Shown here: piece by piece, positions 1,072 to 34,060 of the stretch | Layout: each line of letters starts with the position of its first letter | Position numbering within the stretch: position 1 is the first letter of the stretch | The notes under the pieces: model-generated | What the model was told of the DNA's origin: nothing | What the model saw: the letters and a program-made list of their open reading frames with translations, nothing else | The model's database searches: none | Program-made: the position numbers and the translations under genes | DNA from: Thraustochytrium sp. TN22 | Lineage: Eukaryota; Sar; Bigyra; Thraustochytrida; Thraustochytriidae | NCBI GenBank assembly: GCA_013306675.1 | Contig: JABLUY010000302.1 | Span: 1-38,156, forward strand | Length of the DNA stretch: 38,156 nucleotides | Reading direction: 5' to 3'

Positions 1072-4000
1072 TCAGAGAAAGTTGGGGGCGCAGGGCGCGG
1101 CGTTGGAGGAGAGCTTGTCGAAGACGAGGACGGAGTCGCCGACGAAGCGGTCGCCGTGCTCGATGGGCCAGCTCACAACGTCGGAGGAAGAGAGGCTCGG
1201 GCGCTCAGGGAACTCGTAGAGCGAGCGGCAGGCGATGAGCTCGTCGGGGCGGTCGTAGGCGACGGTGTAGGTGATGAGGATGCCGACGCAGTAGCCTTCG
1301 GTGTCGCAGAGCGTGAAGCTGCAGGTGAGGCGCACGCCGTGCTCGCTGTTGGTGAGCGAGGCGGCATAGGTGTGCTCGGGCAGCTCGCCGAACCAGAGCA
1401 CGGGTCCGTCCATCTGAAGCGGGCGCTCCTGGCCGTCGGTGCGGTACTCGTAGACGGACTGCAGGTTCATGGGCGCGTTGCCGTCGCCGATGCGAAAGTA
1501 GACGGCGCGGTTGGTGCCGCTGCCGACGACCTTGAAGGAGAGGTCCTTGTAGGCGCTGTTGATGGCCTTGGCGGCGACCTTGTTGAAGACGCCGGTGCGG
1601 CCGCAGAGCAGGTCGTTGGTGAAGTGGTCTTCAAAAATTTCCTGGCCCTCGGCCATGCGCACGCGCCAGCGCGCGGAGAGGAGCGCGAAGGAGGGGCTGA
1701 CGCGGATGGCGTCCCAAAACTTGACGCGGCGCGCCTCGCGGCGGCTCGTGACGAGCGAGCTCAGAAACTGGCGGAGCAGCTGGACGTCGTCGGTCTCGAG
1801 CGGCGTGTCGCCAAGGCAGAGCAGCTCGCCGGCGGCGGCGCCGGAGAGGGTTTCCTCGAGGCACGAGCGCATGACGCTCTCGAAGCGCGAGATGAGCTTG
1901 CGGATGCCCCTGCGCTGCAGCGCGCTCTGCGTGAGCTCGGCCAGCTCGCCCTGGTTCTGCGGGCGGTCGGCGTAGTCGCTGGCCTTGACCTGACACGAGC
2001 AAAAGAAGTCCATGATGCGCTGGCTCGTGTCCTGGTCCGCGGCGATGGTGGACAGCACCTTCTCGCCGATGTCGGCTGAGTCGAAGCGCGGGCGACCAGT
2101 GAATGCTGTTCCGGCCTCGGCCTCGGCGCCGCTGCCGCCTAAGGGCGAGCTGTTCAGGGACAAGCTGGGGCTGTCGGGCGGCAGGCCGTCGTCGGAGCCG
2201 CTCGCAGTGAGCTCGCGCGAATGCTGGTCCGCGGCGCCGTCAGGCGCCGAGGCGTGCGTGCGGGGCGAGAGGCCGCCGCCCACAATGTCGCTGTCGGCGC
2301 CGAGCGCCGCCGACTCCGCGTTGAAGAGCGAGTCGGCGAGGTCCTGCGACTTGAGTGCCTCGCAAAAGACGGGCGTGGTGATGCGCGAGGTGATCTCGCT
2401 CTGCAGCATGTAGCGGCGCGAGCGGCGCGTCTCCTGTGCTTCGGCGCGCTCGCGCTTGCAGTACTCGAGCAGTGCCTTGAGCAGCGACTCGCGCGTTTCG
2501 GCGCAAAGGCGGACGCGGCGGCCGCCGCGCTGGGCCGGACCAGCCGCGTCGCCGGCGCCGGCGCCGGCGGCGCGGGTCGAGCCGCTGGCGTTCGCGCCGG
2601 CGCTGGCGCCGGCGCTCGTGCAGGGCGTGGGCGTGGGCGTGGGCGACTTGCGCTTGGTGGCCTGTGAGTCGTCCTCGCTGCCGGAGGTCTCCATTGAACG
2701 GGGGATGCGGGGCTCCGCCTTGATGACTGGCATCGTTGGCAGCGAGGAGGAGGAGGAGGACGAGGACGACGACGAGGAGGAGGAGGAGGGGGGTGGCTTG
2801 GACGAGCAGGCTTTGGCGCCCTCGACCTTGATGGGCGTTTCACCCGGATCCTGCTCACGGCGGCGGCGCAGAACCGTTCGCGCCGAGGTGAGCTTGAAGG
2901 GCGTGGTCTCGCCGACACCAAGCAGGCGCAGCCAGCCGGGGCGCGTCGGGTCTTCCTCGAAAACAAGCATGAAGAGACAGTGCTCCGCGTTGCTGGTGTG
3001 CTTGTGGCCGGTCCAGCGGTAGTCCCAGCCCATGTGGTCCTCATTGGCGTAGAGGCTGGCGAGACAGGGCGCCTCGTGCTCGACGCGGCACGGCAGATAC
3101 TCGTTGCGTGGGTCCTGCTTGCCGCGCTCGACGCTGCGCATGAACTTGATGCTGGCGCCGCCCTCCTCGCGGATGCTGGTGACCTTTTGGCTGGCGTGCA
3201 GGTCGAGCACGGCCCAGGCGTGCAGCGGGGCGCCGCGCGCGGCGCTCGGATCCAGGCGCACGACGCCCTTGACGGCGCACCCGCAAAATCCCTTGGCGTT
3301 GTGTTTGGACGTGGGCCCGCACTGCGGGAAGCACCGCAGGTTCTTGGTGCGCGTGCGCGAATTCCAGCGCCGCTCGTAGCACGGTTTGAAGGACATGACG
3401 CGCTGATCGTCGCGCAGCGCGAAGATCTCCACGTGAGCGGCTGCGCCTGCGTGGCGCGAAGTGGCCGCAGGCGCCTCTGGGGGCGCAGGCGGCGCGTCTG
3501 GCGGCGCGAGCGACGGCACGTGCGGCGGCGCGTGCGGCGCATCGGGCAGTTCCGGTAAGTCGGTGAGCGAGAGCACGTGCGCGCGCAGGCTCTCGTCCGC
3601 CATGTCCAGGTCCAGGCCGAGGTCCACCGCGTGGGGATTCTGATGCAGTACCTCGTCCTGGTGGTGCTGGAGCTGGTGGTCGAGTTCGCCGTGATGCTGG
3701 TGCTGGATGGCGCTGCAAGTACTGCTCGTGGGCGGCCTCGACATGGCGTCCGCGGCCGAGAAGCCCTTCCGCATGTCCCCGCCAAACTCGTCCTCGGGTG
3801 CCAGGTCGTGGCTCAGCACGTGCATGGCTTCCATCGCATTGAGCGGCGGCAGCCCATACAGATAGCCGCCGTCCCCCCAGGGGCTCGTGGCGCTCCCGCT
3901 GTGCGAGTCGCCGCCGCCCGCGTGTGACGACTGCAGGTGCTGTACATATTGCTGGTGCTGCAAATGGTGGTGCACATGCTGCACCTGCTGCGCGTGCTGC

Positions 4001-7938: not shown

Positions 7939-8984
7939 TCAGGCATCATCATCGTCGTCGTCGTCGCCAAGATCAAGCTTGTTGATGCGCGCCTCGAGGG
8001 CGTCATCATCGTCGTCGTCGCCAGCACCGGCGCCGACGTCATCATCGTCTTCGTCGTCCAGGTCGAGGCCGGCGGAGGCCAGAAGCTCGTCGTCGTCGAG
8101 CATGTCAAAGTTCTCGTCGCCCTGGCCGTTGAGGTCAAGGTCGTCGTCATTCTGGCCCCAGCCGTGCGGGTCTTCGGACTCGACGTGCGCGGTGGCGTCG
8201 TCCGGGCCAGAACCCGGCTCAGGCGAAGCGGGCGAGGCCTCGTCCTTGACGCCCGCCTCCTCGCCAGAGCCGCCCGAGACCTGGTAGGCCTCCTTGATGA
8301 GCGAGACGCGATAAAAGTAGTTGCGCCAAAAGTCGCGCTCCGAGACCTCCTTGGGCACGAGTTTGAAGCGCTGGTCGCGCAGGTTCGGGTCGGCCTCAAT
8401 GACAGCCACTGCGTCCAACGCGCGCTCCTCAAAGTCGAATTTAAAGTCCACCGCATCCGGCGGCGGCACAAGGAACGTCTTGTCGTCTTTGGACAGCTCC
8501 AGGATGCGCCCGCGGATCGCCTCTGCGAACTGCTTGCTCGCCGCCTCCTCCCACGGCAGCACGCCCTCGGACCCGCTGGTCACGCTCGCAGCCGCCGCCT
8601 CCATCTGCTCCACCAGCGCGCGCCGCCGCTGCTCAGCCGCCTCGGCCGCCTCCTTCATGCGCTCCGCCAAGGGCTGCGCCTGCTTGGCCAAATCCTGCGC
8701 CTGCTCCGCCAGCGCCGCCGACTTGCTCGACATCCACCCCCACAGCGACGCCGCCTCCGCCTGCACGGCGCTCAGATCCGGCGCCTTGAACAGCCGCGCC
8801 TTGACCTCGTCATCATCGTGGTGCGTCTGCACCTCCAGCTTCTTGCCGCTCAGCTCGGGCCACGCGCCGCGCGCCTGACGCGCCGCCTCATCGCGCGCCG
8901 CCGCCTCTGCGTCGGGCGCCTCTTCTGCGGCCGCCGAATCTGCCCGCGCGTCCTTTGCCTGCTGCTCCTGCTGCTCCAGCACCA

Positions 8985-9017
<33 letters not shown>

Positions 9018-9162
9018 TCTGCTGCGCGCCCTCGGCCTCGTCCTGCGCCGCCGGCTCCTGCGCCGCCGCCGTCTGCTCCTGCAGCGCCTGCTGCGGCTCC
9101 TGCGCCTGCTGCGGCTCCTGCACCTGCTCCGCCTGCGCCTGCGCCTGCGCCTCCTCCGCCAT
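7939..9162 (-). CDS. BSD-domain-containing protein (BSDC1/SYAP1-like)
   Basis: Predicted 407 residues. The ATG at 9162 has a good context (A at -3, G at +4). The first 75 or so residues are Gln/Glu/Ala simple sequence from hexamer repeats. A middle helical segment (about 125-205) is rich in Ala, Glu and Gln and probably coiled coil. A BSD domain lies at about 228-295, with the characteristic Phe-Trp-x-x-Tyr-Phe core (FWRNYFYRV) and a downstream Leu-Ile-Lys. The C-terminal 110 residues are strongly acidic with aspartate runs. BSD domains occur in TFIIH p62 and in the synapse-associated and BSDC1 families; the domain placed after a helical N-terminal half and before an acidic tail is most like the latter. 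Cellular function is not established by the sequence. It is divergent from the tyrosinase fusion across 647 bp. Confidence 0.85.
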
Positions 9163-9809: not shown

Positions 9810-12794
9810 ATGGGGTCCGGCCAGTCCGTGCTGACCGAGGGCGAGCTGGCGGCACACCTGACGCAGGAGGACGCCAGGAGCCTGGAGGTGATTCGCAAGG
9901 CGTGGGAGAGCAAGGGGAGCTTCCTGGAGCCGCACAGGCGCAGTCTGGTGCGCAGATTCCTGGAGGAACTCTTCGTGCGCGCAGTGGAGGATGTGTGCCC
10001 GATGGCGCTCAGCGTGCGGGGGATCGGCGCGATGGGCTTGCAAGACGCGGACGCGTTCTCGCCGTCGGACGCCTACGTGCGGCTGCGCGTCGAGGGCCAG
10101 GATCAGGTCTGGCAGACGCGCACGATCAACAACTCGCGGTCGCCCATGTGGGAGGAGTCTTTTGTCTTTGAGGCGCCCGGCGCGCGCGTCGGTGACGTGC
10201 TCGTGCTCGACGTGCTAGACGACGACCGCTACAGCGAGGATGACCACATCGGTCGCACCGAGGTCGTCTTGGAGCGCCGCCGCCGTGGCGCACGCGACGA
10301 GGCCGTGCACCAGCGTCTGCTTCAGGGCGGCAAGGGTGTCCTGCTCTTCAAGTACGAGCTGCGCTTCCCGGACCTCAAATTGCGCGCCGCCAAGACCTTT
10401 GACGCGCTTCTCGAGGCCTGTGACGAGGCCCTCGATCTCATCACGCGCAATGATCCCCCGCGCGCTGCCGCCGTGCGACGCAGCATCAGCGCCAAGATCG
10501 AGGACCTGGCCTCGGCCATCGAGGACGACCGCGTCGTTACACGCCAGGAGATCCGCACGCTCTCCGAGGCCGATCAACAGCGCTACCTGGCCGCCGTCAA
10601 GCTCATGATGCGTCCCGAGGCCGAGAGGAATAGCCCGCCCCTCCTTGGCTCACCAGCGGTCGCGCAAGACGAGCAGGGGCAGAAGCAGGAGGAGAAAAAG
10701 GACGACGGGGACCAGCACCAGGAGCAGCAGACCGACGGGGGCGCAGCCGCCTCCTCGTCGAGCTCCCTGGCGGAGGCCAGCGCCTTCTTCCGCCTCGCGG
10801 GCTACCACGGGTGGCCAGACGACTTCTGCGCGCACCGCCAGGAGAACTTTCCCGTCTGGCATCGCGCCTACCTGCTTGAGTTTGAGCGCGAGCTGCGCCG
10901 CGCGGATCGCGAGCTCGGCAACGACGGCCACATCGCGCTCCCCTACTGGGACTTTGGCGAATACGAGGTCAACGGCCAGGTGCTGCCGGCCATCTACCGC
11001 GGCGAGAACCTGCCGGGCCTGCCGGAGGGCTTCTTCAAGGACGAGCACGCCGGGCTCAAGATCGCCAAGCTCGGCTACCAGCTCGTCTCGGACGAGACGG
11101 CGCGCGCCAAGCTGGAGCGCAGCCGCATGCACGAGAATCTTCTGGCCAGCCTCGAGGAGAACCACCACTGGCAGCACGCCTCTTGCGAGAACACGACGGG
11201 CGTCCCGCTCGAGGACCCGCACAACTCCGCGCACATGGCCGCCGGCTTCCCGCTCACCAGCCTGGCCTACGCCGCCTTCCACCCGCTCTTCTACAATATT
11301 CACTGCAACGTCGATCGCTACTACGAAAAGTACCTGGCGCTCGAGCCCCAGAGCCTTGAGGAGTTCCGCGCCCACCAGCGCATCCGCGTCGAGGACAACG
11401 GCAACGCCGCGGAAGGCAAGTCTCTCGCCAACAAGTTCGAGGAGCCCCTCGCGCCCTTTGTGGACCCGGACACCCAGGCGCCCTTTCGTGTCGAGAAGAT
11501 CATGTCCACCGCCACGCAGGTGCTGGGCTACGTCTACGACAGCCTCCCCACGCCGCGCCCCGCGCTGCTCACGGAGCTGCCCACGCTGGCGCTCTTCGAG
11601 GGCGTTGACGTGGCCTTCTCGCTACGCGATCGCGACAACAGCATGAAGTCCTTCGAGCTCCACGTCTTTGTGCTGCCCGTCGCGCTGCAGGACGCCTGGG
11701 AGCCCCCACTCGATCACGATCCGGCCACCTGGGCCGCCTGGAGCGAGGAGCGCGGCCTGCGCTACGCCGGCTGGGCCACGGCCTTCGGCGGCAAGGGCCG
11801 CTCCTGCCGCAACTGCCGTGAGACGCGCCCGGTCAACATCGCCATCGACATCTCCCCGCATCTGCACGCTCTCGACGCCACGCGTCACGCCGTCGCGCTG
11901 CGCGCCGTCTGCGTCGATGAGTTCGGCGAGCGCGTTCCCCTGGAGCAGCTCCAGGAGCGCTTCGGCGAGGGCTGCGTCGTGCCGCAGCCGCGCATCGCGG
12001 GCCCGCTCTTTGCTTCCGCCGAGCTCGCGCTCGCCAAGGGTATGGATGCGGCCGACGACGCCTCCGTCGCCGCCGACGTCGAGCAGCTGCAATGGTACCT
12101 CAAGCAGTACGGCTTCTACGAGCACAAGCTCGACGGCGACTTTGGCGACGCCACCGAGGCCGCCGTACGCCGTTTCCAGGCCTACCTGGGCCTCGTCGAG
12201 GACGGCGTCGCCGGCGTCCTCACCAAGCGCGCCATGCTCACCAAGCGCAACGACGCGCGCCCGGATCGTGCTGGTCCAGGCGGCGACGAGGACTTCGAGG
12301 ACCGGCCCACCTTCGCCGCCGGCGCGCGCATCTCCTGGTGGCTTGGCGCGCATCCGGGCTACCTGGACCCTGTGCACCTCGAGGAAGAGGTCCAGCGCGC
12401 CTTTGACCTGTGGGCGGAGCATGCGCCCATCGACTTCCAGCGCGTCGACACGCGCGAGGCCGCTCACATTGTTGTGGTCTGGGGCGACCGCGCCGCGGAC
12501 GATGCCTTCAAGTTCGACGGCCGCGGCGGTGCCATCGCGCAGGCCTCCGCTTCCGCGGTCCAATTCGACGTCAGCGAGCCGTGGTCGCTCGCGCTCCACC
12601 CGACGCAGCGCGGCGACCGCCACTCCTACTGCGTGCTTCCCGTGCTCCTGCACGAGCTCGGCCACGTCCTCGGCCTTCGCACCCACAGCCCGGACCCGAG
12701 CCACGCCATGGGCGCCTATTACGTCTCCAACCGCGTCCAGCTCGCGCCCGCCGACCTTGACCGCCTGCGCGACATGTATGCCGCTGCGCCATGA
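9810..12794 (+). CDS. C2-tyrosinase-PGBD-matrixin fusion protein
   Basis: Predicted 994 residues, no signal peptide. It starts MGSGQS, an N-myristoylation consensus (Gly2, Ser6). A C2 domain (about 65-180) keeps all five usual calcium aspartates (D81, D87, D137, D139, D145). After a helical segment and a Gln/Glu-rich linker comes a tyrosinase domain (about 325-500). Its CuA ligands are H333, H342 and H351, with C340 placed for a Cys-x-His thioether. Its CuB ligands are H471, H475 and H498, with Asn472 after the first. A beta-rich tyrosinase-type C-terminal part follows. Residues about 745-805 form a peptidoglycan-binding-like domain, and about 825-994 a matrixin-like zinc protease with HELGH at 948-952 and a downstream Met. 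Tyrosinases oxidise phenols; matrixins cleave proteins. Both substrates are unknown here. No PRCGxPD cysteine switch is visible. The order PGBD-matrixin matches matrix metalloproteases; its joining to tyrosinase and C2 is unfamiliar to me. Confidence 0.92.
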   Translation: MGSGQSVLTEGELAAHLTQEDARSLEVIRKAWESKGSFLEPHRRSLVRRFLEELFVRAVEDVCPMALSVRGIGAMGLQDADAFSPSDAYVRLRVEGQDQVWQTRTINNSRSPMWEESFVFEAPGARVGDVLVLDVLDDDRYSEDDHIGRTEVVLERRRRGARDEAVHQRLLQGGKGVLLFKYELRFPDLKLRAAKTFDALLEACDEALDLITRNDPPRAAAVRRSISAKIEDLASAIEDDRVVTRQEIRTLSEADQQRYLAAVKLMMRPEAERNSPPLLGSPAVAQDEQGQKQEEKKDDGDQHQEQQTDGGAAASSSSSLAEASAFFRLAGYHGWPDDFCAHRQENFPVWHRAYLLEFERELRRADRELGNDGHIALPYWDFGEYEVNGQVLPAIYRGENLPGLPEGFFKDEHAGLKIAKLGYQLVSDETARAKLERSRMHENLLASLEENHHWQHASCENTTGVPLEDPHNSAHMAAGFPLTSLAYAAFHPLFYNIHCNVDRYYEKYLALEPQSLEEFRAHQRIRVEDNGNAAEGKSLANKFEEPLAPFVDPDTQAPFRVEKIMSTATQVLGYVYDSLPTPRPALLTELPTLALFEGVDVAFSLRDRDNSMKSFELHVFVLPVALQDAWEPPLDHDPATWAAWSEERGLRYAGWATAFGGKGRSCRNCRETRPVNIAIDISPHLHALDATRHAVALRAVCVDEFGERVPLEQLQERFGEGCVVPQPRIAGPLFASAELALAKGMDAADDASVAADVEQLQWYLKQYGFYEHKLDGDFGDATEAAVRRFQAYLGLVEDGVAGVLTKRAMLTKRNDARPDRAGPGGDEDFEDRPTFAAGARISWWLGAHPGYLDPVHLEEEVQRAFDLWAEHAPIDFQRVDTREAAHIVVVWGDRAADDAFKFDGRGGAIAQASASAVQFDVSEPWSLALHPTQRGDRHSYCVLPVLLHELGHVLGLRTHSPDPSHAMGAYYVSNRVQLAPADLDRLRDMYAAAP

Positions 12795-14563: not shown

Positions 14564-14991
14564 TGGCGCGCGCCCCGCCAAGCGTGCGCCGCCGCCGCTC
14601 CGCTTTGCGCTTTGATCGATCCATTGTGCAGTGTCACCAGTGCCAGTGCGCCAGCAAGCAAGACCAACCGTATGGTACCGCATCGTGGTACCCCTCGTAC
14701 ATGACTTGCTGCTGCGCGGTCTCAGGCTCGTCGAGCGCGACACTCGCTTCAACGCCAATGACACGTGCCCTGGACGACTTGACAGTGCGTGCAAGACAGC
14801 TTGCAGTGCGCTGCTCCATTGACTAGTGGTCAGGTCGCCGGTATTGCGTCGCTAGCTGGATGAAGAAGACGGTGCTTCTTGTTCAGTCGTCCTTGGCGCT
14901 ACATCACTCACTGTCACTGTCAGATTTGTTCACTTGCACTTTTTCACTTGCTCTGAGAGTTCTTCTTGTTCTTCCTACGTCCTCTTCTTCT
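14522..14991. promoter_or_regulatory. Upstream region of RAE1
   Basis: These 470 bp lie between the RAE1 start codon and the stop codon of the next minus-strand gene. The part next to RAE1 is GCC-rich. Farther up, GC content falls and two GGTACC sites occur near 14674 and 14686. No gene is supported. It must hold the RAE1 promoter and the 3' UTR of the gene at 14992-15798. Confidence 0.5.
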
Positions 14992-15798
14992 TCACTCGGT
15001 GACGAGAACCAGGGCAGTGCCAGCCTCCTGGGACAGACGGGCACCCTCAAAAAGGACAAACCAAGCGCGGGCGAGATCGGCCTTGAGGCCGTCGACAGCG
15101 TCGCAGGATGCAATAGGAGCTTGCAGGCTGGCAAGAGCCTGCGCACTGACGTCCATGCCGCCGCCGCGACGTACGGCGCCATGCCGTGGTCGCAGCGAAA
15201 CGCCGAGCAGCGGGGAGAGCTCGGCGAGCTCGGAGAGCAGGTCGGTGCTGGCGCCAACCCAGCCGCCGGGCACGCGGCCGGTGGCGTCAAAGATGGGCGG
15301 GCCGGCGCCCTCGACGGGCAAGAAGAGGCCCTCAGATGCGTGGCAGATGAGATGACTTCCCCGCGCGCGCTGGTCCTCGTCCTCCATGGCCAGCTGCACG
15401 AAGGACTTGGTCTCCGGCACGCCGCCCGCCTTGCCAGCCTGCGCGTGTGCAAAGTCCGCCCAGGAGTATCCCAAAATCGCGCACGCGTAGAGCTCCTGCA
15501 GGTCCTGGAAGGCGTCGAGGCTGATCTCCATGCGCTCGCAGCGCGACTCTGCGCCGACCGCCACGCCTGGGTCCTCGAACCTCTCGGGGCCCGCCGCCTC
15601 GGCCTTGCAGCCGCCCTTGGCAGCGCCCGCGTCGCGGTCCTGGTCCTCGTCGCGCGCGAGCTCGAGCTGCTGCTCGTGCACGAGGTCCGCGGCGACCTCG
15701 AGCGCGTCCATGACGCGCCGACGCAGGTCGCGCTCGCGCAGCTGGCCGGCCAGCAGCACGCGGAGGCCGCCGGGCGCGGGCCTCGCGGCCTCCGCCAT
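14992..15798 (-). CDS. Uncharacterised 268-residue protein
   Basis: I chose the ATG at 15798 (protein begins MAEAARPAPG), just past which the divergent WD40 gene begins. The frame has the strong third-position G/C bias and balanced amino-acid composition of neighbouring genes, whereas the opposite strand here reads as His/Arg/Leu-rich shadow. The N-terminal half is helical and charged. The middle part contains Trp/Tyr/Phe-rich blocks such as ILGYSWADFAHAQ and LICHASEGLFLPVEG, then a Gly/Trp turn (GGWVGAS), typical of a folded soluble domain. There are no membrane segments and no signal peptide. I do not recognise the family. The very short divergent gap suggests co-regulation with the WD40 gene. 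Confidence 0.65.
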   Translation of the reverse strand: MAEAARPAPGGLRVLLAGQLRERDLRRRVMDALEVAADLVHEQQLELARDEDQDRDAGAAKGGCKAEAAGPERFEDPGVAVGAESRCERMEISLDAFQDLQELYACAILGYSWADFAHAQAGKAGGVPETKSFVQLAMEDEDQRARGSHLICHASEGLFLPVEGAGPPIFDATGRVPGGWVGASTDLLSELAELSPLLGVSLRPRHGAVRRGGGMDVSAQALASLQAPIASCDAVDGLKADLARAWFVLFEGARLSQEAGTALVLVTE

Positions 15799-15927
15799 GG
15801 TCCCGGTCTGCCCGCGCGGGGCGTGCCGGGCCGGGCCGGGCCGGGCCGGGCGCCTCTCGGCGACAAGACCGTTGTGGGTCTGCCGCAGAACCCGACCTGC
15901 AGCGCGCCGCAGTGCGTCAATGGTGCC
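15799..15927. promoter_or_regulatory. Compact 129-bp bidirectional promoter
   Basis: The start codons at 15798 (-) and 15928 (+) are divergent and only 129 bp apart. The gap contains a GGGCC/CCGGG pentamer run at about 15825-15852. If both starts are right, both promoters and 5' leaders share this space. Confidence 0.5.
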
Positions 15928-18477
15928 ATGCGCGCGCAAGAGGGCACCGCCGCGGCAGCGGCCGCCGCGGCGGCGCTGGATGCGCGCGAGCGCGCGCTGG
16001 AGCGCGGCCGCGAGCACGAGTTCCTGCGGCTGCTGGAGGTCGCGCTGGAGCTCAGCGAGTGCGGCGCAGGCATGACGCACACGTGCCGCGTGCTGCAGAA
16101 GCTGCACGGCCTCGAGCCGGGCGTGGACGTGCGCGACGAGGAGGGACACAACGGTGAAGGAGAGCAGCGACTGGCAGGGGAGGCAAAAGAGCAGCTGGAG
16201 GAGGACAACGGCGAGGGCGAAGACAAGCTGGCGGCGAGGCTGCGGCGCTGCGCGCTCTCTGAAGAGGCCTGGGCCGCGATCGATCGTGCCACGCGCCTCA
16301 AGCAGACGTCGCCACTGCTCCTGGAAGAGTTGCGCGCGCTGCACAGGAATCTGGTGCACTGGATCGACGTCTTCGCGCGAGACCCCGGGACGGACTTCGC
16401 CAAGGACGTGCAAAACCACAAGCATGAGGCGTACCTCAACGGCGTCGCACTACTGCACGGCCTGCAGGACGTCTACAAGCAGAGTTTCCTGGCGCTGCGG
16501 CCGTGCATGGCCAACTTGGAGACCTTCAACGAGCGGCGCGACGCCATGAAGGAGCTCGACGGCCTCGACCCGGCCCTGCTCGTGCCGTGCGTGAGTCCGG
16601 AGGCCTTTCACGTGCTGGAGGCGGAGGTGGCCGAGGTGGTTGTCACGCTGCGCAAGCTGCCGCTCGAGTCGAAACTGCATGGCCAGCCCATTTTACGCCA
16701 GCGACATGACGCCGAGCAAATGGTCTTAGAGTCCTACGAGCTGTCACGCGCAAGCCACGACCACCTGTGGGTCTTCGACGGCCTCGACAGCTGCACACGC
16801 AAGGCGCAGGCCGCGGCGCGTGCCGCAGACCCCGAGGGCACGCACGGGTCGGCCGCCGCGCATAGCGAGCTGCCAGGTCTGCTGCAGGTCGCCACGCAGG
16901 CGCAGAGGCTAGAGGGCTCGATGCGTGCGCGAGGGCGGCGCCAGGACGCGCACGGCGGCGAGGCGCGCCTCAACCGGCGCTACTCGATCGAATCGCTCTT
17001 TGACACCTCGCCGGACCGCATCGTGAGCTATCTGCGCAAGCGCACCATGGCCTTCCTGCAAACCGAGCTGCTCGTCGACATGTACACGTTGTGCGCGTGC
17101 GTGCTGACGGCGGCCCTTGCGCTGGCCGAGGCACTCGGGCAGAACGAGCAGCTGAGCGAGCTGCTGGCGAATGGCCAGGTGCTGGCCGCGCATCTGGTCG
17201 GCTCAACGCTGCCGCTGCTGGAGCGCTCGCTCAATTTCGAGCCGCGGCTCGTGCAGTTCAACTTTGCGCACCTGACTCTGCGCGGACTGGCCGGCGCTGA
17301 CGGCGCCAACCGCTCGTTGCACCGTCAGATCCGCAAGCTGCGCATCCTGGACAAGGTCTTCGAGGGTCTCGACGTCTTTGCCTTCCCTCGCACCATCGAC
17401 ACGCACTTTGCGGCCGTGCGCTGCGTGGCGCGCAGCCACCTCGAGTCAACCCTGCTGCTCACCTGCGGCGACGACCGCGCCATCCGCGTCTGGGACGCCT
17501 GCACAGGCGCCTGTCTAGGGCTCTTCACCGGCCACCGGTCCGTGGTGTCCTGGTGCGAGTTCTCGCCGGACGACCGTCTCGTGGTGAGCGCCTCCTTCGA
17601 CCTGACGCTCAAGGTGTGGGACTCGCGCACGGCGCGATGCACGGCGACGCTGCACGGCCACACGGAGCCCATTTTGGACGGCGCCATCTGCCCGCAGGGG
17701 AAGCTGCTGCTCTCGGCCAGCATGGACGGCACCGTGCGGCTGTGGGCGGTGGAAACCGGCGCGTGCTTCCGCGTCTACCGCGCGCACCGACCCGACACCT
17801 GGGTCAAGCGCGTGTGCTTCCTCCCAAGCGGGTCCGGGTTTGTCTCTGCCGGCCTCGACGGCCGCCTCGCGCTGTGGAGCTTGAGTGCGGGGTCCATCGG
17901 CAAGCGAAAGACCAAGGAGGCCAAGGACAGCGAGCCGGCGCAGGCGCGCCGCGCCTCGCTGCGCCTGGCGCAGGCGCTGCCGGCGCCGTACGCGCCCAAG
18001 TTCGACCAGCTCCAGGCCGAGGTAGAGCAGGTCGAACAAGAGGAGACGGCCGAGGAGCTGCGACCCGCGCACGTGTGGACCGACCTGCACGCGGATGCCA
18101 TCATCGACATGGACGTGATGGCCCGGCCGAAGCAGCCCGCCGTGCTGCTGACCGCAGCCAAGGACGGCGCCAGCCACCTGGTCAACCTTGGCACGACGGA
18201 GCTCTTCAAGACTGTGCACAGCGGCGGCGGGTCGGCGGCCGTGGGCGCCGCCTCGGCCAAAACCTGGGCCGTCTCGGTTGCTTTCTCCCCCGATCGCAAG
18301 TTCTTCGCGCTCGCCCGCTTCGACAACACCGTGCAGGTGTACGCGACCTCCAACGCCACCCTGCTGCGCACCTTGCATGTTCACAACCACGGCATCACCT
18401 GCGTCACCTTCTCCGGCAACTCCCGCCATCTCTTCCTCGGTACCTCCTCCGGAGGCCTACAGATTGTAAGCTTGTAA
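15928..18477 (+). CDS. WD40-repeat protein with novel helical N-terminal half
   Basis: Predicted 849 residues. The frame is open upstream to 14860, but that part lies opposite a better-supported minus-strand gene, so I start at the ATG at 15928, before a poly-Ala run. Residues about 20-485 are mostly helical and not recognisable. They include a hydrophobic stretch around 385-405 (LLVDMYTLCACVLTAALALA) that could be a membrane or buried helix. Residues about 490-849 form a WD40 propeller. Clear blades end DRAIRVWD, DLTLKVWD, DGTVRLWA and DGRLALWS. A basic and acidic insertion (about 655-710) follows, then more degenerate blades to the C-terminus. WD40 propellers are interaction scaffolds, and no specific partner can be named. 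Confidence 0.85.
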   Translation: MRAQEGTAAAAAAAAALDARERALERGREHEFLRLLEVALELSECGAGMTHTCRVLQKLHGLEPGVDVRDEEGHNGEGEQRLAGEAKEQLEEDNGEGEDKLAARLRRCALSEEAWAAIDRATRLKQTSPLLLEELRALHRNLVHWIDVFARDPGTDFAKDVQNHKHEAYLNGVALLHGLQDVYKQSFLALRPCMANLETFNERRDAMKELDGLDPALLVPCVSPEAFHVLEAEVAEVVVTLRKLPLESKLHGQPILRQRHDAEQMVLESYELSRASHDHLWVFDGLDSCTRKAQAAARAADPEGTHGSAAAHSELPGLLQVATQAQRLEGSMRARGRRQDAHGGEARLNRRYSIESLFDTSPDRIVSYLRKRTMAFLQTELLVDMYTLCACVLTAALALAEALGQNEQLSELLANGQVLAAHLVGSTLPLLERSLNFEPRLVQFNFAHLTLRGLAGADGANRSLHRQIRKLRILDKVFEGLDVFAFPRTIDTHFAAVRCVARSHLESTLLLTCGDDRAIRVWDACTGACLGLFTGHRSVVSWCEFSPDDRLVVSASFDLTLKVWDSRTARCTATLHGHTEPILDGAICPQGKLLLSASMDGTVRLWAVETGACFRVYRAHRPDTWVKRVCFLPSGSGFVSAGLDGRLALWSLSAGSIGKRKTKEAKDSEPAQARRASLRLAQALPAPYAPKFDQLQAEVEQVEQEETAEELRPAHVWTDLHADAIIDMDVMARPKQPAVLLTAAKDGASHLVNLGTTELFKTVHSGGGSAAVGAASAKTWAVSVAFSPDRKFFALARFDNTVQVYATSNATLLRTLHVHNHGITCVTFSGNSRHLFLGTSSGGLQIVSL

Positions 18478-30505: not shown

Positions 30506-33500
30506 ATGCTGCGCACGGATCTGCGCGCGAGCATGCGGCGCGCGGCGTCGCTGCGCGCGCTGCACGTGACGCGCAATGCGAGCAGCTTCTCGAAGCTGAT
30601 GGCGGCGAACCGTGGCGAGATCGCCACGCGCATCATGCGCGCGACCAACGAGCTGGGCATCCGCTCGGTGGGTATCTTCTCGCACGAGGACCGCTTCACG
30701 CAGCACCGCTACAAGGCGGACGAGTCGTACCAGGTGGGCAAGGGCAACACGCCGGTGGGCGCGTACCTGGACATCCCGTCCATCATCAAGGTGGCCAAGG
30801 AGAACAAGGTGGACGCCGTGCACCCGGGGTACGGTTTCCTGTCCGAGAACGTGGGCTTCGCGAAGCAGTGCGCGGCGAACGGCATCACGTTCGTGGGGCC
30901 GACGCCGGAGAACCTGGAGCGCTTCGGCGACAAGACCGCGGCGCGGCAGATCGCCATCGAGAACGGCGTCCCGGTGGTGCCCGGCACGGACGGCCCGGTG
31001 AGCACGCTGGAGGAGGCCCGCGCCTTCATCGACAATGGGGTTGGGTACCCCGTCATCATCAAGGCGAGCATGGGCGGCGGCGGCCGCGGCATGCGCGTGG
31101 TGCAGTCGGCGGAGGAGCTCGAGGAGAACTTTAGCCGCGCGAGCTCTGAGGCGCTCTCGGCCTTTGGCGACGGCACGGTCTTCATCGAGCGGTACGTGGA
31201 CCGGCCGCGGCACATTGAGGTGCAGATCCTGGGTGATGGCCAGGGCAACGTCGTGCACCTCTTCCACCGCGACTGCTCCGTGCAGCGGCGCCACCAAAAG
31301 GTGCTGGAGACGGCGCCGGCCGTGAACCTGGACCCGGCCGTGGAGAAGGCCATGATCGACGACTCGGTGCGGCTCATGAGCGCGGCCAAGTACAAGAACG
31401 CCGGCACGGTGGAGTTCCTCGTGGACAAGCAGGGCCGTCACTACTTTATTGAGGTGAACCCGCGCATCCAGGTGGAGCACACTATCACGGAGGAGATCAC
31501 CGGCGTGGACCTGGTGCAGAGCCAGATCCGCATTGCGCGCGGCGAGTCGCTGGCGGACCTGGGCCTGCGCCAGGAGGACATCAAGGTGCGCGGCCACGCC
31601 ATGCAGTGCCGTGTGACGACCGAGGACCCGTTTACTGGTTTCCAGCCGGACTCGGGCGTCATCGAGGTCTTTCGCAGCCCGGGCGGCATGGGCATCCGCG
31701 TCGACGACGGCCCGGGCTTCGTGAACGCGCACATCACGCCGCACTACGACTCGCTGCTCGTCAAGCTGACGGCGCGCGCGCTGGACCGCGGCGACTGCGC
31801 GCGCAAGCTCAAGCGCGCGCTGCAGGAGTTCCGCGTGCGTGGCGTGACCACCAACAAGAGCTTCCTCAACAACGTGCTCAACCACCCGGACTTTCTCCAG
31901 GGCACCGTGGACACCAGCTTCATCGCGGAGAACCCGGACCTGGTCAAGCCCTCCCGGTCCACGAACCGTGGCCAGAAGCTGCTCAAGTACATTGGCAACA
32001 CCATCGTGAACGGCCCGGAGAAGGCGCTGGGCGCCGCCCCGGGCGTCGTGCCCTCCAAGGTGGACGCCATCATTCCGTCGCTGCAGGAGCCGGCGCCGCG
32101 CGAGGGCCGCTCGCTGCGCCAGATCTACGTCGAGGACGGCCCGGCTGCCTTTGCCAAGGCGGTGCGCGGCAACAAGGGCCTTCTGCTCACCGACACGACC
32201 TGGCGCGACGCGCACCAGTCGCTCCTGGCCACGCGCGTGCGCACGCGCGACCTGGAGGCCATCGCGCCGGCCACGCGCATCGCCATGCGCAACGCGTACT
32301 CGCTCGAGATGTGGGGCGGCGCCACCTTTGACGTCTCCATGCGCTTCTTGCGCGAGGACCCGTGGGACCGCCTGGCGCTCCTGCGCGAGCAGGTGCCGGA
32401 CATCCCGTTCCAGATGCTCTTCCGCAGCGCCAACGCTGTGGGCTACACGAGCTACCCGGACAACGTCGTCTACAAGTTCTGCGAGAAGGCGCAGCAGACC
32501 GGCATGGACGTCTTCCGCGTCTTCGACTCGCTCAACTACCTGGAGAACATGCGCCTGGGCATTGACGCCGTCGGCGCGGCCGGCGGCATCATCGAGGCCG
32601 CCGTCTGCTACACGGGCGACGTTTCGGACCCCACCCGCGGCAACTACGACCTCGACTACTACCTGGACTTCACGCGCAAGCTCGTCGACCAGGGCATCCA
32701 CGTGCTCTGCATCAAGGACATGGCCGGGCTGCTCAAGCCGCAGGCGGCGCGCCTGCTCGTCGGTGCCATCCGCAAGGAGTTCCCCGACCTCCCGATCCAC
32801 GTCCACACCCACGACACCGCCGGCACCGGCGTGTCCTCCATGCTCGAGGCCGCCTACGCCGGCGCCGACGCCGTCGACTGCGCCTCCGACGCCATGTCCG
32901 GCACCACGGCGCAGCCCTCCATGGGCGCCATCGTCAACTCGCTGCACGGCACCGACCTCGATACGGGCGTCTCCGTGGACGAGATCGTCCCCATCGACGA
33001 CTACTGGGAGGCCACGCGCGGCATCTACGCGCCCTTCGAGTCGGGCCAGATGTCCGGCTCCGCCGACGTCTACAAGCACGAGATGCCCGGCGGCCAGTAC
33101 ACCAACCTCATGTACCAGTCCAAGCAGCTTGGCCTCGCCGGCCAGTGGCCGGCCATCAAGCGCGCCTACGCCACCGCCAACGAGCTCCTCGGCGACATCA
33201 TCAAGGTCACGCCCTCCTCCAAGGTCGTCGGCGATCTCGCGCAGTTCCTCGTGCAGAACGACCTCACCGCCGAGCAGGTCATCGAGCAGGCCGAGACGCT
33301 CTCGCTGCCCAAGTCCGTCGTCGAGTACTTCCAGGGCTACCTCGGCATCCCGCACCACGGCTTCCCCGAGCCGCTGCGCTCGCGCGTGCTCAAGGGCAAG
33401 CCGCTTCTGCCCAACGGCAAGAACTGCTTCGAGGGCCGCCCCGGCGCCGAGCTCCCGCCCTACGACTTTGAGTCTTCGCGCGAGCAGCTCGAGGCCAAGT

Positions 33501-34060
33501 ACGGCGAGGGCAACGTGCGCGATGTCGACGTGCTGTCCCACGCGCTCTACCCCGAGGTCTTCGACGACTACATGGCCTTCCGCAAGGAGTACGGCGACAT
33601 GCACGTCCTCGACACGCGCACCTTCGTCAGCGGTCTCGACGTCGACTCCGAGGTCGCCATTGAGCTCGAGCGCGGCAAGACCGTCTTCCTCAAGCTCGTC
33701 GCCGTCGGCGGCGTCTCCAAGAAGGACGGCAAGCGCGATGTCATCTTCGAGATGAACGGCCGCCAGCGCGTTGTCCGCGTGCTCGACGAGTCTGCCGGCG
33801 TTGGCACTGTCACCAAGGCCAAGGCCTCCTCCTCCGACCCGGGCTCCATCGGCGCCCCCATGCCTGGCGTCGTCCTCGATGTCCGCGTCAAGCAGGGCGA
33901 GATTGTCCAGGCCGGCACCCCGCTCCTCGTCCTCTCCGCCATGAAGATGGAGACGGTCGTCGCCGCCCCCGTCGCCGGCCGCGTCAACGCCATCCACGCC
34001 GGCGTCGGCGACAACATGCTCGCCGGCGACCTTCTTGTCGAGATCGACCAGTCCGGCTGA
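30506..34060 (+). CDS. PYC: Pyruvate carboxylase, mitochondrial
   Basis: Predicted 1184 residues, the normal length for a single-chain enzyme. It carboxylates pyruvate to oxaloacetate using ATP, bicarbonate and biotin. An Arg-rich presequence without acidic residues apart from Asp5 covers about 1-33. Biotin carboxylase with its ATP-grasp fold spans about 34-480, with the glycine-rich loop ASMGGGGRGM and EVNPRIQVEH at 316-325. The carboxyltransferase domain starts near 560, with DTTWRDAHQSLLATR at 563 and the lysine expected to be carbamylated at K737 (IKDMAGLLKP). An intervening conserved carboxylase region runs to about 1060. The biotinyl domain ends the protein, with biotin lysine K1147 in SAMKMETV. 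All key residues are present, so it should be active. The role is anaplerotic; in oleaginous protists oxaloacetate can also feed citrate export, but that is inference. Confidence 0.97.
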   Translation: MLRTDLRASMRRAASLRALHVTRNASSFSKLMAANRGEIATRIMRATNELGIRSVGIFSHEDRFTQHRYKADESYQVGKGNTPVGAYLDIPSIIKVAKENKVDAVHPGYGFLSENVGFAKQCAANGITFVGPTPENLERFGDKTAARQIAIENGVPVVPGTDGPVSTLEEARAFIDNGVGYPVIIKASMGGGGRGMRVVQSAEELEENFSRASSEALSAFGDGTVFIERYVDRPRHIEVQILGDGQGNVVHLFHRDCSVQRRHQKVLETAPAVNLDPAVEKAMIDDSVRLMSAAKYKNAGTVEFLVDKQGRHYFIEVNPRIQVEHTITEEITGVDLVQSQIRIARGESLADLGLRQEDIKVRGHAMQCRVTTEDPFTGFQPDSGVIEVFRSPGGMGIRVDDGPGFVNAHITPHYDSLLVKLTARALDRGDCARKLKRALQEFRVRGVTTNKSFLNNVLNHPDFLQGTVDTSFIAENPDLVKPSRSTNRGQKLLKYIGNTIVNGPEKALGAAPGVVPSKVDAIIPSLQEPAPREGRSLRQIYVEDGPAAFAKAVRGNKGLLLTDTTWRDAHQSLLATRVRTRDLEAIAPATRIAMRNAYSLEMWGGATFDVSMRFLREDPWDRLALLREQVPDIPFQMLFRSANAVGYTSYPDNVVYKFCEKAQQTGMDVFRVFDSLNYLENMRLGIDAVGAAGGIIEAAVCYTGDVSDPTRGNYDLDYYLDFTRKLVDQGIHVLCIKDMAGLLKPQAARLLVGAIRKEFPDLPIHVHTHDTAGTGVSSMLEAAYAGADAVDCASDAMSGTTAQPSMGAIVNSLHGTDLDTGVSVDEIVPIDDYWEATRGIYAPFESGQMSGSADVYKHEMPGGQYTNLMYQSKQLGLAGQWPAIKRAYATANELLGDIIKVTPSSKVVGDLAQFLVQNDLTAEQVIEQAETLSLPKSVVEYFQGYLGIPHHGFPEPLRSRVLKGKPLLPNGKNCFEGRPGAELPPYDFESSREQLEAKYGEGNVRDVDVLSHALYPEVFDDYMAFRKEYGDMHVLDTRTFVSGLDVDSEVAIELERGKTVFLKLVAVGGVSKKDGKRDVIFEMNGRQRVVRVLDESAGVGTVTKAKASSSDPGSIGAPMPGVVLDVRVKQGEIVQAGTPLLVLSAMKMETVVAAPVAGRVNAIHAGVGDNMLAGDLLVEIDQSG

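Follow-up and report, generated by a model that had tools for sequence, protein, structure and literature searches.

Why would a phenol-oxidising copper enzyme and a matrix metalloproteinase (MMP) module be encoded in a single reading frame, and what could such a chain do? The question is raised by a gene of the thraustochytrid Thraustochytrium sp. TN22 on contig JABLUY010000302.1, whose entire 38,156 nucleotides are called here the window. A frame of 994 codons uninterrupted by a stop runs there from 9810 to 12794 on the forward strand, and an original prediction had placed C2, tyrosinase, peptidoglycan-binding and matrixin domains in it. All four are found above their Pfam cut-offs: C2 (residues 67-157, 62.3 bits, cut-off 22), Tyrosinase (residues 324-509, 85.9 bits, cut-off 22.6), PG_binding_1 (residues 755-809, 62.2 bits, cut-off 23) and Peptidase_M10 (residues 841-990, 83.2 bits, cut-off 24), the latter a matrixin/MMP (M10A) by sequence. 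The fused chain is genuine and no artefact, and it belongs to a real and widespread family of two-enzyme proteins for which the literature searched holds no functional study. The reading that we prefer, with a probability of about 0.4 for all its steps taken together, is that of a calcium-responsive, membrane-tethered cytosolic pro-tyrosinase that carries its own activating pro-matrixin. The anatomy behind that reading (domains, ligands, shield, prodomain, motifs and conservation), as far as alignments and structure models can tell, deserves much higher confidence, while the location, the calcium control, the self-cleavage and the substrate are what we infer. The gene as a whole is as follows:

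9810-12794, forward strand: whole gene, a 994-residue C2 - pro-tyrosinase - pro-matrixin chain (Pfam; Hondaea relative 61% identical from end to end).

Its best relative is protein P0002 of Hondaea fermentalgiana (database name 'Matrix metalloproteinase-2'), with 61% identity over 100% of the chain (60.5% across 1000 alignment columns). This full-length relative and the Pfam scores together exclude chance. Both proteins begin with MGSG(Q/L)SVLTEGEL, a shared N-terminus that supports the ATG at 9810. A six-frame search of the genome (37.9 Mb, 453 contigs, E up to 0.001), in which copies split by introns may escape, gave two matches each for the tyrosinase, M10 and PG_binding_1 families, always at the same two loci: the window gene and a region of contig C123 at about 11.6-14.9 kb. 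In this genome, therefore, tyrosinase and M10 were found in no form other than the fusion, and the fact that the three families occur twice each and at the same loci argues that the two enzymes are coupled. The second locus holds a paralog, a frame of 1075 residues with poly-Gln stretches (L003:2644-5871, reverse strand), whose tyrosinase, PG_binding_1 and M10 domains also exceed the Pfam cut-offs and which is 38% identical to the window protein across 781 alignment columns.

Three protein searches retrieved at least 65 database proteins with PF00264 and PF00413 in one chain. The family must be larger, since each search scored about 8000 candidates and one gave the best 120 of 170. The counts given below refer to 67 rows (the 65 database proteins, the window protein and the paralog) unless another set is named. 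Sources include the algae Chlamydomonas schloesseri, Edaphochlamys, Gonium, Pleodorina, Volvox, Astrephomene, Ostreobium (two proteins) and Emiliania huxleyi, as well as Hondaea (two) and Durusdinium trenchii assemblies (two). The structure model of the Gonium protein shows the same two folds, a copper unit with its shield and a pro-matrixin. In one metagenome protein, P0015, a heme peroxidase domain (PF00141, 140.8 bits, residues 694-925) is inserted at the boundary between shield and prodomain. Tyrosinases of prokaryotic type, without a protease, occur lower in the search lists. A scan of genome contigs with the family alignment produced 18 pattern stretches, none confirmed as a relative, and a scan of viral contigs produced 68 and no relative; each scan used two short peptide patterns, and for this reason absence from prokaryotes and viruses is not established.

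One might still suspect that two or more adjacent genes have been read as one. Fused gene models are possible in this family, as illustrated by P0004, from a Durusdinium assembly, in which a thiolase and a BSD domain precede the fusion. For the window gene, however, such an artefact is so improbable that it can be regarded as refuted because the relatives share the architecture: the frame is unbroken, a 61% identical relative spans its full length, the same core stands at a second locus, and the family counts 67 members. P0004 itself is probably made of several genes read as one, and perhaps comes from a thraustochytrid contaminant. Separately, the fusion gene has a BSD-domain neighbour (window 7939-9162, reverse strand). 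The BSD part of P0004 is a relative of it (51% identity, 289 columns), so the BSD-fusion neighbourhood is shared.

The copper half of the chain comprises the following features:

10533-12011, forward strand: entire type-3 copper unit, made up of core and shield (residues 242-734).
10779-11336, forward strand: tyrosinase core, residues 324-509, with six copper-ligand histidines, C340 and N472 (Pfam; alignment).
11544-11585, forward strand: linker that follows the LGYVYD motif and joins core to shield (residues 579-592), a candidate loop for activating cleavage (dip in model confidence; position of the abPPO4 loop).
11586-12011, forward strand: C-terminal beta-rich shield domain, residues 593-734 (structure model, fold match).
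11784-11816, forward strand: F659 followed by C666-x-x-C669, a placeholder-like Phe and a CxxC motif of copper-loading type (alignment; comparison with abPPO4).

The six histidines of the two copper sites, CuA and CuB, stand exactly where they had been predicted (H333, H342, H351, H471, H475 and H498), as do C340 of the Cys-x-His thioether motif and N472, and both sequence (PF00264) and core fold are those of a type-3 copper protein. Counted column by column, His occupies the ligand positions in 65, 65, 64, 67, 66 and 65 of the 67 members, in order, and Cys the thioether-type position in 66. Between tyrosinase and protease lies a shield domain (about 593-734) that the original prediction had overlooked. 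It has the hallmarks of a latent tyrosinase: a beta shield, a putative placeholder residue (Phe in 61/67 members) and a CxxC motif (each Cys in 63/67), and the match of residues 242-734 to hemocyanin and pro-tyrosinase folds reaches residue 734. A sequence search of the PDB with residues 480-740 aligned nothing beyond the end of the tyrosinase core, and the shield assignment therefore rests on the fold and on the Phe/CxxC spacing. In the candidate cleavage loop, the predicted local distance difference test (pLDDT) score of the structure model drops to 62 at residues 581-590. The Pfam domains DWL and KFDV are absent from the window protein at E up to 1, which sets it apart from plant-type polyphenol oxidases. 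Because all copper ligands are present and a C-terminal shield is attached, the oxidase is probably made latent, as in fungal pro-tyrosinases.

A different interpretation of the copper unit is that the chain is a hemocyanin-like intracellular protein for handling oxygen or copper, regulated by proteolysis and devoid of phenol oxidase activity. Molluscan hemocyanin units provide both the closest fold and the closest solved sequences, and the CxxC copper motif would also fit. However, fungal pro-tyrosinases match nearly equally well and the fold cannot separate an oxygen carrier from an oxidase; moreover, Asn immediately behind the first CuB His, a feature that the original prediction had linked to phenol hydroxylation, is present in 45/67 members, while 18/67 have Asp there. 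We consider this interpretation very unlikely.

The protease half can be described as follows:

12072-12236, forward strand: PG_binding_1 match, residues 755-809, corresponding to the helices of the MMP prodomain (Pfam; alignment with pro-MMPs; fold).
12246-12254, forward strand: R813-N-D815 at the position of the cysteine switch (alignment; no Cys in 735-840).
12330-12779, forward strand: Peptidase_M10 catalytic domain, residues 841-990 (Pfam; alignment; fold).
12651-12686, forward strand: zinc motif HELGHVLGLRTH at residues 948-959, which exceeds HExxHxxGxxH by one residue (sequence).

The peptidoglycan-binding domain had been proposed as a module in its own right. The Pfam match is there, but it is part of the prodomain: residues 731-991 align in one piece to pro-MMPs in sequence and in fold, and the structure model of that segment resembles proMMP-9. 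A free module for binding peptidoglycan or wall material is thus ruled out. Although the prodomain fold is present, the cysteine switch PRCGxPD is missing; RNDARPD is found instead, PRCGVPD of MMP-9 aligns with KRNDARPD of the window protein, and residues 735-840 hold no Cys at all. R813 is Arg in 54/67 members and D815 is Asp in 59/67. According to the available text of PMC6949598, aspartate switches exist in karilysin and in astacins, and by analogy D815 is a candidate aspartate switch over the zinc.

The predicted HELGH is found at residue 948. The third His, however, comes one residue later than in the metzincin motif, so that the window copy has HExxHxxGxxxH and departs from the matrixin pattern HExxHxxGxxH. 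Most of the family does not: HExxHxx[GS]xxH occurs in 61/67 members, and the paralog reads HEVGHVLGLQH. The third His stands solely at the late position (+12) in P0001, P0002 and P0005; His is found at both positions in P0003 and P0081, and at neither in P0004 (cut short), P0089 and P0091. The individual zinc-site columns are well occupied (H948 in 65/67 members, E949 in 64/67, H952 in 65/67, H959 in 65/67), and the Met-turn residue M967, as expected of a matrixin, is Met in 66/67. With the copper ligands kept in 64-67 of the 67 members, the zinc HE..H in 64-65 and the HExxHxx[GS]xxH motif in 61, the family has retained both active sites.

These data bear on the possibility that the oxidase works alone and that the pro-matrixin, at least in the window's clade with its drifted zinc site, serves as a folded cap or scaffold. 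The late third His of P0001, P0002 and P0005 would agree with such a role, and so would the lack of a cysteine switch together with a retained prodomain, since the zinc site may then stay covered. Against it, the same clade still has HE..H together with the later His and the Met-turn residue, and the canonical motif persists in the paralog and in 61/67 members. On balance, we find the cap or scaffold doubtful.

Two features at the front of the chain bear on location and control:

9810-9830, forward strand: MGSGQSV, predicted N-myristoylation-type motif (motif match; N-myristoyltransferase family in the genome).
10008-10280, forward strand: C2 domain, residues 67-157, of calcium type with D81, D87, D137, D139 and D145 (Pfam; alignment with synaptotagmin C2).

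The start of the protein fits MG-x3-[STAGCN] and the genome encodes an N-myristoyltransferase, so at motif level the chain is a candidate N-myristoylated protein. Many of the 67 rows may be N-terminally truncated; the pattern occurs in 23/67 members and in 0/85 other matches from the same searches, a weak control made mostly of prokaryotic-type tyrosinases; CAAX ends (CALL, CVLS and CALL) are found in 3/67. Secretory signals were sought as the highest 12-residue hydropathy within the first 60 residues, and not with a trained predictor. By this test the window protein peaks at 0.72 and lacks a signal peptide, and in a first set of 39 members the peak was 1.72 at most, with a strongly hydrophobic N-terminus in 0/39. 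A 19-residue hydropathy above 2.0 anywhere in the chain was seen in two of the 67 members, P0089 and P0095. The myristoylation-type motifs, the CAAX ends and the scarcity of hydrophobic N-termini argue for a location on the cytosolic side of a membrane rather than in the wall or scales.

The original prediction had favoured an extracellular enzyme that cross-links and remodels wall scales or a pigmented matrix, which would now require unconventional secretion or an anchor on the outside. Matrixins and many tyrosinases do act outside cells, and hydrophobic N-termini are found in P0067, P0079 and P0095. But a signal-like N-terminus is missing in 39/39 members of the first set and in 64/67 of the larger one, lipid-anchor motifs of both kinds recur, the calcium-sensing domains are of cytosolic type, and the peptidoglycan-binding match is an MMP prodomain. 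A role in wall, scales or extracellular matrix is not supported, and we regard it as quite unlikely. The broader picture, in which one chain combines the folds of a phenol oxidase and a matrixin with signals for membrane targeting, does find support in Pfam, predicted folds and motifs.

The C2 domain is, as had been claimed, of calcium type, with all five Asp ligand positions filled in the synaptotagmin alignment. In the precomputed Pfam annotation of the 65 database members, C2 occurs in 18, EF-hands in nine and both in none; a canonical EF loop lies near the C-terminus in 9/9 of the EF-hand members.

How the two copies arose was examined in a tree built from 39 rows with 726 columns; its bootstrap had yet to converge (0.968), it leaves 15 of its 36 internal branches unresolved, and its midpoint root is an arbitrary choice. 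One group (100/99) contains the window protein, Hondaea P0002, P0003, P0004 and P0005. Its sister (95/95) contains the paralog, Hondaea P0034, P0017, P0006 and P0035. Hondaea is the nearest source for both paralogs, and the second is 62% identical across 744 columns to P0034, which has poly-Gln stretches as well. As each paralog groups with its own Hondaea counterpart, the duplication seems to predate the divergence from Hondaea, and both copies have retained the fused core.

Returning to the self-activating pro-tyrosinase, the steps would be these. Two zymogens, a shielded copper oxidase and then a whole pro-matrixin, would share one intracellular chain, which the N-myristoylation-type tether would hold at the cytosolic side of a membrane. 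Calcium entry, for instance upon wounding or membrane damage, would engage the C2 domain or, in volvocine relatives, the EF-hand pair. The matrixin, in which D815 would replace the cysteine switch, would become active and cut the exposed linker at about 579-592, in its own or in a neighbouring chain. The shield would then depart, and the tyrosinase could oxidise phenols or tyrosines locally, and the resulting quinones would cross-link the site of damage or turn it dark. The outcome would be a self-contained, single-chain version of the prophenoloxidase cascade.

Several observations weigh against this proposal. The third zinc His of the window copy is one residue late, and its protease may therefore be weak or dead. 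The linker has no conserved, clear protease site: in relatives inspected by eye, without counting, it shows Pro-rich stretches and no strict MMP-type cut motif. As to the tether, 41/67 members start without MG and 44/67 lack the N-myristoyl motif, and three of 67 (P0067, P0079 and P0095) reach a hydropathy of 2.0 or more at the N-terminus. Neither C2 nor EF-hand is annotated in 38/65 database members, and C2 went undetected both in the window's own paralog and in its Hondaea counterpart P0034; hence calcium control is not universal. Finally, with a fold nearest to molluscan hemocyanin, the catalysis assigned to the tyrosinase could be that of a catechol oxidase, or the unit could be an oxygen carrier.

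The individual parts have known counterparts. The pro-tyrosinases abPPO4 (Agaricus bisporus) and that of Aspergillus oryzae have a similar type-3 core and C-terminal beta shield; Phe454 and Cys462-Cys465 of abPPO4 correspond to F659 and C666-C669 (a placeholder Phe, then CxxC), its cleavage loop after a YG motif to the linker after LGYVYD, and abPPO4 is activated by proteolytic removal of the shield. Fungal latent tyrosinases rely on a separate activating protease, while the window chain has a pro-matrixin behind and a C2 domain with a lipid-anchor motif in front. Compared with proMMP-9 and proMMP-2, it lacks cysteine switch and signal peptide, has a shifted third zinc ligand and is fused behind a tyrosinase. 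Karilysin, a bacterial MMP, combines an aspartate switch with a pro-segment of 14 residues in the available part of PMC6949598; the window protein has a full MMP-like prodomain, with an Asp in the region of the mammalian switch Cys whose zinc binding is putative. Arthropod prophenoloxidase, a latent phenol oxidase, resides in the cytosol, has no signal peptide and is activated by proteolysis when the animal is wounded. If the proposal holds, the window chain would work alike; it differs from the arthropod cascade in that the latter uses separate proteases, another class of type-3 copper protein and extracellular activation.

The architecture had been thought undescribed. In the open-licence literature one trace of it was found, without functional account: the legend of Figure 1a in a 2016 paper in Sci Rep (PMC4707469) names boxes PG, ZnMc and EFh in proteins that have the tyrosinase domain. 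The same paper states that green algae have few TYR domains, without DWL/KFDV. What its PG-ZnMc-EFh boxes stand for is, very probably, the tyrosinase-M10 family in its volvocine form; judged from the legend and from the volvocine matches, the order tyrosinase, prodomain, matrixin is the same, with a C-terminal EF-hand pair in the algal form and an N-terminal C2 in the window protein. The available passages of PMC4707469 are silent on the protease, the shield, lipid motifs, location, the C2 form and function. The claim of novelty is thus partly right. Its own ground for refutation, that published proteins of the same architecture are numerous, applies to database entries and not to functional studies, of which none was encountered.

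Elsewhere in the window are a tRNA-Ala (anticodon GGC, 88 bases, 2523-2610, forward strand; ARAGORN), a WD40-repeat protein of 1205 residues (14860-18477, forward strand) and a pyruvate-carboxylase-like protein of 1184 residues (30506-34060, forward strand).

Pro-tyrosinases require an activating protease, and MMPs are textbook extracellular proteases. A bolder generalisation, which we consider unlikely, is that of a eukaryote-wide family of single-chain, calcium-gated, self-activating prophenoloxidases lining the plasma membrane on its inner side, in which damage would admit calcium and the built-in matrixin would remove the shield, freeing the tyrosinase to seal or poison a wound, with the window's clade using a new zinc motif, HExxHxxGxxxH. 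If the two zymogens are indeed coupled within the cell in a conserved family, the fusion would be a built-in answer to the problem of activating a phenol oxidase at the right place, and matrixins would enter the cytosolic biology of algae and thraustochytrids.

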